NCBI GenBank assembly: GCA_002701385.1
Contig: NZVD01000095.1
Span: forward strand, 2,992 to 38,649
Direction: 5' to 3'
Source of the DNA: Rhodopirellula sp.
Lineage (GTDB): Bacteria; Planctomycetota; Planctomycetia; Pirellulales; Pirellulaceae
DNA length: 35,658 nt
Below are positions 12,900 through 14,547 of the stretch, one piece after another (the stretch's first letter is position 1; each line of letters opens with the position of its first letter). The translations under genes were made by a program, and so were the position numbers. Below the pieces are notes generated by a model. The model was not told the DNA's origin. It ran no database searches and saw nothing but the letters and a program-made list of their open reading frames with translations.

Positions 12900-13232
12900 A
12901 TGACGGATCAGTATTTTCTTTCCACAGCAGACTGCACCAGGAAGAACATTTTTCCCGGAGTGGACATCTATACGGCCGCTGGCGAACAAATGATGTTGTC
13001 ATTGGTGAAATTTGCACCAGGCGCCGTGGTTGAATTACATCAACATGACCATGAACAGTGTGGCATACTTATTTCCGGAGAGCTTACGTTTACAGTCGGA
13101 GATGAAACTCGCGTTTTGCAACCTGGGGAAATGTGGAGAATACCAGGGAATGTTCCTCACACTTGTTTTGCTGGAAAAGATGGAGTCACGGCCTTAGACA
13201 TCTTTACCCCGATTCGGGAAGATTATCTGTAA
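12900..13232 (+). CDS. Small single-domain cupin
   Basis: A 110-residue beta-barrel protein of the RmlC-like cupin fold. Cupin motif 1 includes ELHQHDHEQCGILISGEL (metal ligands H, H, E expected from the two histidines and the glutamate) and motif 2 is PGEMWRIPGNVPH with its histidine. A metal site is therefore complete. Such small cupins may be enzymes (dioxygenases, isomerases, lyases) or regulators that bind a small ligand. The gene follows the enolase-like gene after 5 bp and is likely the last of the operon. Its context suggests a role in handling the product of the kinase and enolase pair, which is inference. Confidence 0.85.
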   Translation: MTDQYFLSTADCTRKNIFPGVDIYTAAGEQMMLSLVKFAPGAVVELHQHDHEQCGILISGELTFTVGDETRVLQPGEMWRIPGNVPHTCFAGKDGVTALDIFTPIREDYL

Positions 13233-13273: not shown

Positions 13274-13279
13274 TATAAT
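13274..13279 (+). promoter_or_regulatory. -10 element of the attenuated aro promoter
   Basis: A perfect TATAAT lies 37 bases before the leader-peptide ATG, giving a transcription start near 13285 and a short 5' leader. No convincing -35 is seen at 16-18 bp spacing; TTGCTC at 13248 is too far (20 bp). Position relative to the leader ORF makes it the likely promoter of the attenuator transcript. Confidence 0.55.
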
Positions 13280-13316
13280 GCAAAAACTTGCTTCAGTAAT
13301 CACGACAAGAAACCCT

Positions 13317-13397
13317 ATGAATCATCAGCAAACTTTTTATTGGTCATTTTTCTTTACTGGCCCGTGGCAACGCGGGGTTGGAAGGGATATGTCATAG
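13317..13397 (+). CDS. Aromatic-rich leader peptide of the DAHP synthase attenuator
   Basis: A 26-codon open frame (ATG 13317, TAG 13395-13397) whose residues 7-13 are FYWSFFF, with another Trp at 17, so seven of 26 residues are aromatic and all three aromatic amino acids are present. Two more facts make it a regulatory leader rather than chance: it lies just downstream of a TATAAT, and its 3' codons (20-24) form one arm of an antiterminator helix. The expected mechanism is ribosome-mediated attenuation, as for trpL and pheM: shortage of charged tRNA-Phe, tRNA-Tyr or tRNA-Trp stalls the ribosome at codons 7-13, exposing codons 20-24. The ribosome site (AAGAA) is weak. An in-frame ATG at 13278 overlaps the -10 element and is unlikely to be in the RNA. 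Confidence 0.82.
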   Translation: MNHQQTFYWSFFFTGPWQRGVGRDMS

Positions 13398-13440
13398 CGG
13401 TTTGTGAACCACTGAATCCAAAGAGAACTTTCCAACCTCG
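13373..13440 (+). promoter_or_regulatory. Antiterminator stem of the aromatic attenuator
   Basis: Bases 13373-13385 (CGGGGTTGGAAGG) pair with 13428-13440 (CTTTCCAACCTCG) over 13 positions, two of them G-U wobbles. The 3' arm overlaps the 5' arm of the terminator at 13434-13440, so the two structures exclude each other. The 5' arm lies inside the leader ORF at codons 19-23, where a ribosome reaching the stop codon would cover it but one stalled at codons 7-13 would not. A small hairpin at 13396-13413 (GGTT/AACC) fits within the antiterminator loop. Confidence 0.8.
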
Positions 13441-13464
13441 GCACTATCTGCCGGGGTTTTTTTT
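13434..13464 (+). terminator. Attenuator (intrinsic terminator) before DAHP synthase
   Basis: A stem of ten pairs (13434-13443 with 13449-13458, one G-U) around a five-base loop CTATC is followed by a run of eight T residues at 13457-13464. It sits between the leader peptide and the aroF start codon, 70 bases before the latter. When it forms, transcription should stop before the structural gene. Confidence 0.88.
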
Positions 13465-13533: not shown

Positions 13534-14547
13534 ATGATCGTCGTAATGAAAAACGGTGCCAGCCCAGAAGAAATTGCTGCGACAGTGGTAAGAATTAAAG
13601 CACTAGGACTCAAGGCTCATGTCATCGAAGGGACAGATCGGACCGTGGTCGCTGCGATTGGTGAAAAGCGAGAGGAAACCAAAGAGTCGCTCGAATCTGG
13701 TGAAGGCGTGGAAGAGGTAATGCCTATCTTGGCACCTTATAAAGTTGCCAGTCTGGAAGTGAAGCCGGAACCTACTGTGGTAACGGCAGGTAGCCTTTCT
13801 GTCGGTGGGAATCACGTTGGAGTTGTTGGTGGACCCTGTAGTGTTGAATCAGAAGAGCAACTCATGGAGTCGGCTCGAGCAGTCAAAGCTGCTGGTGCGA
13901 CTGCATTAAGGGGCGGGGCCTTTAAACCGCGAACAAGTCCTTACAGTTTTCAGGGAATGAAAGAAGAGGGCCTTAAATTGCTGGCGGCGGCTCGGGAAGA
14001 AACCGGCTTGGCTGTCGTGACCGAAGTGTTAGCTACTGATGACGTAGAGTTGGTGGCTAACTACGCAGATGTCCTGCAAATCGGCGCCCGCAATATGCAA
14101 AATTACCGACTCCTTGAAGCAGTCGGTAACACAGACAAGGCCGTGATGCTCAAACGAGGTGCATCAGCAACGATGGACGAATTCCTACTGGCAGCAGAAT
14201 ATATCCTGAACGAGGGAAATCCTAATGTAATGCTCTGTGAACGTGGGATTCGGACTTTTGAATCTCATACCAGATTTACACTTCCTTTAGCTTCGGTAAC
14301 TTACTTGCACCACAAGACACACCTGCCCGTGGTCATTGATCCAAGTCATGGTACAGGTCATGCTTACCTGGTGCCGGATATGGCGGTGGCGGCCGTTGCG
14401 GCTGGAGCAGATGGACTGATTATTGAAATGCACCCTAATCCGCCGGAGGCGATGAGTGATGGGTATCAGTCGCTCACACCTCAGCAATTTCAGGAAACCA
14501 TGGCCCGGTGCCAAACAATCGCTCAGGCTATTGGGAAGTCTATTTAG
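13534..14547 (+). CDS. aroF: 3-deoxy-7-phosphoheptulonate (DAHP) synthase, AroA-beta type
   Basis: A 337-residue type I-beta DAHP synthase. It condenses phosphoenolpyruvate with erythrose 4-phosphate, the first step of the shikimate pathway to Phe, Tyr and Trp. Residues 1-70 form an N-terminal ferredoxin-like regulatory domain as in the Thermotoga enzyme. The KDPG-type barrel carries [33 protein letters not shown] and [10 protein letters not shown], including the metal Cys and His and the phosphate-binding KPRTS loop. AGGA lies nine bases before the ATG. Expression is predicted to be controlled by the attenuator just upstream; feedback via the N-terminal domain is known for this class. Its stop overlaps that of the convergent DUF1501 gene by four bases. 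Confidence 0.96.

Follow-up and report, generated by a model that had tools for sequence, protein, structure and literature searches.

The short aromatic-rich open reading frame ahead of the DAHP synthase gene in the window (the whole stretch of 35,658 nt that was analysed) is, with a probability of roughly 0.9, the leader of a ribosome-mediated transcription attenuator of this shikimate entry enzyme. An original prediction made from the letters of the DNA had proposed such an attenuator, and it is supported as the best interpretation by conservation, by covariation and by the geometry of the arms. The locus combines three features of this class of regulators: a leader ORF with control codons, an intrinsic terminator, and an overlapping antiterminator whose 5' arm a ribosome on the stop codon could cover.

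Genes, leader and helices in the window

12900-13232: small upstream cupin-like gene, directly 5' of the attenuator
13274..13279, + strand: TATAAT, -10 element of a putative leader promoter, 37 nt to the leader ATG (direct reading)
13317..13397, + strand: leader ORF of 26 codons plus stop, MNHQQTFYWSFFFTGPWQRGVGRDMS; ATG at 13317-13319, stop TAG at 13395-13397
13335..13355, + strand: aromatic control codons 7-13, FYWSFFF (direct reading)
13365-13367, + strand: further Trp codon, codon 17 (direct reading)
13361-13366 / 13371-13376, + strand: arms of the 1:2 hairpin (folding)
13373..13385, + strand: antiterminator 5' arm (arm 2), inside leader codons 19-23 (folding, covariation, own-partner duplex test)
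13428..13440, + strand: antiterminator 3' arm (arm 3) (folding, covariation)
13434..13464, + strand: intrinsic terminator 3:4, with arms 13434-13443 / 13449-13458 and T run 13457-13464 (folding)
13534..14547, + strand: DAHP synthase gene, 337 aa, the putatively regulated gene (profile matches)

The leader elements named in the original prediction, that is the TATAAT, the frame of 26 codons, the FYWSFFF run at codons 7-13 and the Trp at codon 17, are all found by direct reading. A consensus scan of the + strand of the window returned no sigma-70 promoter, the TATAAT being without a good -35. The predicted identity of the downstream gene holds as well, since its product scores 378.1 bits against TIGR01361 (cut-off 267.75) and 480.3 against NF006421 (cut-off 335); we take this DAHP synthase to be of 'type I-beta'. 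A cupin-like gene stands at the equivalent position also in the relatives L002-L006.

Folding of a transcript ended at 13440 gives the expected antiterminator of 13 pairs (13373-13385 with 13428-13440), and the terminator folds with ten pairs followed by eight T residues (z -4.76; 0/200 shuffles fold as well). Because the arms of the two helices share positions 13434-13440, they are mutually exclusive, just as had been proposed. The helix between 13361-13366 and 13371-13376 fills out the set of 1:2, 2:3 and 3:4 pairings in the window. As a whole, the leader folds modestly better than shuffles (z -1.8; 13/200).

Conservation and covariation upstream of DAHP synthase

To define orthologues, 60 genomes were sampled (own, genus, family and order), with a DAHP synthase match in 59 and 49 close orthologues at an identity of 66% or more; 420 nt upstream were examined for all 49. 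In 44 of these 49 upstream regions, a short ORF rich in aromatic codons precedes a hairpin with a T run, and a covariance model (R1) adds one further leader (L022, about 420 nt upstream), which brings the total to 45/49. A strict automatic rule, demanding at least five aromatic residues in ten codons and a terminator no more than 150 nt from the stop, finds the arrangement in 41/49 compared to 2/49 on the reverse strand. The original prediction had made conservation of the leader frame in close relatives its own touchstone, and by both counts the frame is conserved there. Judged from these comparisons of sequence, the leader-terminator arrangement is beyond chance, and it is on this conservation that our case rests. 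No leader was found in the upstream region of the remaining four orthologues (L031, L037, L043, L049); at L031, a tRNA-His gene lies upstream instead (L031:489-563, - strand). Upstream of paralogous DAHP synthases (46-51% identity; 20 of 38 loci read and 19 kept, L066 being left out as taken on the wrong strand), none of the 19 regions reaches five aromatic residues in ten codons, and two reach four.

The leader starts of the 44 were chosen by eye, prior to promoter inspection. Phe, Tyr and Trp are all present in 37 of the 44 leaders and account for 15%, 7% and 5% of the residues, respectively, and in 19/44 exactly 33 nt separate the last aromatic codon of the run from the stop. At genus level, 48 of 157 codon changes are synonymous versus 18% expected, a moderate excess that is counted over overlapping species pairs. 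Alignment A1 comprises the 44 sequences (L022, L031, L037, L043 and L049 excluded), and model R1 comprises 38 of them (L012, L026, L027, L033, L034 and L040 excluded). Applied to the six withheld leaders, R1 matches L012, L026 and L034 well and L027 weakly (E 0.025); L033 and L040 give no match at E 0.1.

Covariation of both helices among close relatives, as envisaged in the original prediction, is borne out for terminator and antiterminator. The terminator is 91.4% paired, 82 cells are changed on both sides compared to 26.3 in shuffles, and 11 of its 12 pairs carry changes on both sides. For the antiterminator, 69.7% of the cells are paired and 43 are changed on both sides (23.4 in shuffles), with a covariation score of 0.208 versus 0.149 that is reached by 0/500 shuffles; it also surpasses each of the six slid versions in the share of paired cells, in the count of two-sided changes and in score. 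The number of antiterminator pairs changed on both sides (nine) is not above shuffles (117/500), and slide -1 gives ten. The 1:2 helix comes out weaker, with 71.4% of its cells paired and a covariation score of 0.192 compared to 0.129 in shuffles but neither the number of covarying pairs nor the pair types above shuffles in the 44 sequences. Besides, the own arm 2-arm 3 duplexes have a mean of -21.6 kcal/mol versus -17.7 kcal/mol for permuted partners (0/500 permutations as low), and in 39/44 leaders the own arm 3 outdoes the average foreign partner. Given this own-partner fit and the covariation of both helices in spite of their common arm, both seem to be kept by selection.

The spread of the leader was followed with the combination of aromatic ORF and terminator, using the reverse strand as control; the genome samples overlap in part, and their counts are not summed. 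Leaders were found at 21 of 25 loci in a class sample (reverse strand 0; three genomes already in the orthologue count), at 12/13 loci in family f87 with a threshold of at least four aromatics in ten codons (reverse strand 0) and at 14/29 loci in a phylum sample (reverse strand 0). Among the 80 best named relatives, 45 have a leader by the rule (reverse strand 1) and 35 have none by it, of which looser rules recover four, with two on the reverse strand; by title, 75 of the 80 are planctomycetes, three are 'bacterium', one is Ardenticatenaceae and one UBP4, which supports a planctomycete origin of the window. Single stretches gave 1/1 for f21, 1/2 for f88, 0/2 for f89 and 0/2 for f91, and in f88 a close DAHP synthase orthologue occurs in 2/21 genomes. 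In family f62, three of four loci carry the leader, and a hydrazine synthase domain in three of four f62 genomes marks them as anammox-type bacteria. Among three loci with Gemmatales or Gemmataceae in their titles, the rule accepts L185 and L193 and rejects L181; L185 folds into both alternative helices, and the antiterminator of L193 is not clear.

Promoter position and the near-absence of Shine-Dalgarno (SD) motifs indicate that the aromatic leader mRNA is probably leaderless outside the genus of the window. For 28 of the 36 leaders outside this genus, a TTG-type -35 and a NANNNT-type -10 place the +1 at the ATG or a few bases from it, on a background of 416/17,640 (2.4%) for the pattern at any upstream position, and SD-like tetramers stand before 1/36 leaders outside the genus and 0/8 within it. 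Five of the eight genus loci (L001, L002, L003, L005, L006) have a TATAAT 30-37 nt from the ATG, and L004, L007 and L008 have none at this distance. For one planctomycete species, the available text of PMC5397173 ties non-SD genes to leaderless mRNA and/or protein S1.

Leucine and isoleucine leaders at other entry enzymes

Two further genes, leuA (2-isopropylmalate synthase) and citramalate synthase, came to light through weaker model matches. Leu-rich leaders with terminators precede leuA at 22/29 loci in near relatives (reverse strand 0), and the window's own genome carries such a Leu leader, MHSCRLLLPSLLAVLLARP, at locus L215. In all 22 taken together, the own arm duplex beats permutations (0/1000). 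Leu-rich leader ORFs with terminators upstream of leuA were noted at L107, L109, L110, L113, L114, L116, L118, L120, L121 and L126. Ile-rich leaders with terminators were found before citramalate synthase at 11 of 16 usable loci in near relatives (reverse strand 0), the identity of the enzyme being given by the TIGR00977 scores of two proteins (666 and 574 bits; cut-off 450). These 16 were kept from 23 loci, seven having been dropped because the start motif was absent from the stretch, and include L108 and L123, which entered via model matches. The Ile-rich leaders at citramalate synthase were noted at L108, L112 and L123 and among loci L236-L256. Regarding cross-matches, Leu ORFs occur at 3/49 DAHP synthase and 3/16 citramalate synthase loci, Ile ORFs at 1/49 DAHP synthase and 0/29 leuA loci, and aromatic ORFs at 0/29 leuA and 0/16 citramalate synthase loci.

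At trpE, no Trp leader with terminator was found in 30 loci (reverse strand 1), and ilvB, with 3/30 versus two on the reverse strand, gives no sign of leaders; in each of these two sets four loci end at contig ends, and the slice may be off. With leaders at DAHP synthase, leuA and citramalate synthase and none at trpE or ilvB, control would sit on entry enzymes, and the aromatic, Leu and Ile leaders suggest a controlled set of such enzymes. In more distant groups, the leuA leader becomes rarer, at 9/30 loci (reverse strand 0), that is 3/3 in f21, 2/6 in f87, 4/18 in f88 and 0/3 in f62. Within f88, genus g164 has the Leu leader at 0/9 leuA loci compared to 4/9 in the rest of the family; this genus is also without a close orthologue of the leader-bearing DAHP synthase. 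A leaderless start was considered for the leuA leaders too and is not supported, with the promoter pattern in 5/22 and an SD-like tetramer in 9/22.

Taken broadly, Planctomycetes might hold a whole set of entry-enzyme attenuators, for aromatics at DAHP synthase in much of the phylum, for Leu at leuA in the class and for Ile at citramalate synthase in near relatives, with the aromatic leader mostly leaderless. We consider the chances of this wider reading to be evenly balanced, slightly less than at first, since leuA leaders do not in general show a leaderless start and do not extend over the whole phylum.

Proposed switch, alternatives and known systems

In the proposed switch, transcription would begin 5' of the leader ATG, and for most relatives beyond the genus directly on this codon or beside it; a ribosome would translate the aromatic run. 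If charged Phe-, Tyr- or Trp-tRNA were scarce, this ribosome would stall on the run and cover arm 1, leaving arm 2 in the last leader codons free to pair with arm 3 on its emergence; the 2:3 helix would then block the terminator and DAHP synthase would be transcribed. With ample aromatics, the ribosome would reach the stop codon and cover arm 2, and arms 3 and 4 would make the terminator. We infer leader translation, stalling, termination and read-through alike from the sequence. A shortage of any single aromatic would presumably be sensed, and the presence of all three in most leaders fits an enzyme that is common to three pathways.

Folding with the ribosome placed on the leader is consistent with this order of events. 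With a stalled ribosome and arm 4 absent, a 2:3 helix of at least four pairs is possible in 43/44 leaders, and with the ribosome at the stop the terminator is left in 43/44. When the switch is tested by folding at equilibrium, it does not come out in 35/44, as under a stalled ribosome the antiterminator wins in 9/44 and the terminator in most; partial transcripts without arm 4 were folded instead. Since the terminator is stronger at equilibrium, the decision would have to be kinetic and fall before RNA polymerase has left the leader, and for such a kinetic decision the design needs a ribosome that trails the polymerase closely. Ribosome-free RNA gives two outcomes: at full length, 43/44 leaders end in the terminator, but partial transcripts form 2:3 first in 33/44.

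Other explanations of the same arrangement have to be weighed against attenuation. The short ORF could serve translational coupling or re-initiation by feeding ribosomes to the DAHP synthase gene, in keeping with the available text of PMC4833913, which counts leader genes in Planctomycetes in a re-initiation context and finds that short leader genes often stand a fixed distance away from structural genes. However, the leader stop and the DAHP synthase start of the window are 136 nt apart with the terminator between them, and in 39/49 loci the enzyme gene has an SD-like tetramer of its own in front, which makes coupling very improbable. We also find it highly unlikely that the hairpin and T run constitutively end an upstream transcript or a small RNA, with the ORF being incidental: the cupin-like gene does end upstream at 13232, and chance alone would yield 0.3 terminator-like sites in this stretch, but the aromatic ORF is conserved alongside the terminator (41/49 under the strict rule versus 2/49 on the reverse strand), and arm 2 within the ORF covaries with the terminator arm.

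Competing helices alone would equally fit a riboswitch, a T-box or an RNA-binding protein that senses the amino acid or tRNA directly. Against this, Rfam gives no match at gathering score in the whole window, T-box and other riboregulators included, and for the leader alone all matches at E up to 10 lie under their gathering scores with no T-box among them; moreover, in-frame control codons match the pathway in three gene families, so that direct sensing is extremely improbable. An additional action of the terminated leader RNA or peptide in trans, like that of rnTrpL/peTrpL in S. meliloti, would find its parallel in the architecture of rnTrpL, a small leaderless mRNA ending at the attenuator (PMC7298713, as far as its available text goes); the leader peptides vary much outside the aromatic run, however, and we regard such an action as unlikely.

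If the ribosome-mediated attenuator works as drawn, ribosomes would have to bind right at the 5' terminus and be in place by the time about 150 nt have been made. Transcription and translation would consequently be coupled at these loci, also in the anammox-type family f62 and in MAGs titled Gemmataceae, lineages that feature elaborate internal membranes. The attenuator would thus be a sequence-level reason to expect tight coupling in the phylum and a natural reporter for testing it, and family f88, with leaders in some genera and none in g164, would allow a comparison of coupling with its loss. In this context, the finding touches on a debated point of planctomycete cell biology: according to the available text of PMC6212462, Gottshall 2014 claimed a physical separation of transcription and translation in Gemmata obscuriglobus, and the compartment view behind this claim is disputed (PMC6554331, likewise from its available text). 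Besides, aromatic, Leu and Ile leaders would enlarge planctomycete gene regulation, with a probable leaderless aromatic start across many families.

The trpL, pheL and pheM attenuators of enterobacteria combine the logic of 1:2, 2:3 and 3:4 helices with control codons and a U-run terminator. The leader of the window has this helix logic in common with them, as far as folding shows, and lies outside the corresponding Rfam families, as its scores of 17.1 bits for Trp_leader RF00513 (gathering 41) and 15.6 for Phe_leader RF01859 (gathering 55) are far below gathering. The nearest known case is the aroR-aroF attenuator of Corynebacterium glutamicum, reportedly described by Neshat et al. in 2014. 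According to the available text of the sources, an aromatic leader (Phe-Tyr-Phe) stands there before the DAHP synthase gene (PMC11802643; PMC4046766 as predicted aroF leader) and responds to Phe, not to Tyr (PMC11802643). An aromatic leader before DAHP synthase is common to both systems, and ribosome stalling, which raises transcription there, is proposed here as well, whereas aroR, compared here by description only, belongs to another phylum and has Phe-Tyr-Phe, with no Trp mentioned in that text. Given this precedent, an aromatic leader before DAHP synthase is not new as a design. Putative attenuators of unspecified kind, likewise ahead of DAHP synthase, are found in the available part of Merino's database for DAHP synthase-tyrA operons of Vibrio and Thermus (PMC1173090), which differ by phyla and by the tyrA gene organisation. 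For an RNA starting at the ATG of the leader ORF, the attenuation system trpL (rnTrpL/peTrpL) of Sinorhizobium meliloti is a precedent (PMC7298713, available text), different in its Trp operon, trpE(G), and its 14-residue peptide.

According to the available text of a 2010 survey, amino-acid leader peptides had previously been known only from Proteobacteria and Actinobacteria, to which Firmicutes were added (PMC2965389). The original prediction knew of no described case in Planctomycetes, and the accessible parts of the open literature agree, with no attenuator or aromatic, Leu or Ile leader described in this phylum in a search whose scope stops short of the Lopatovskaya 2010 survey. The kind of system is known, and what appears to be new is its widely conserved aromatic form in planctomycetes, which probably has a leaderless mRNA and is matched by counterparts for Leu and Ile.
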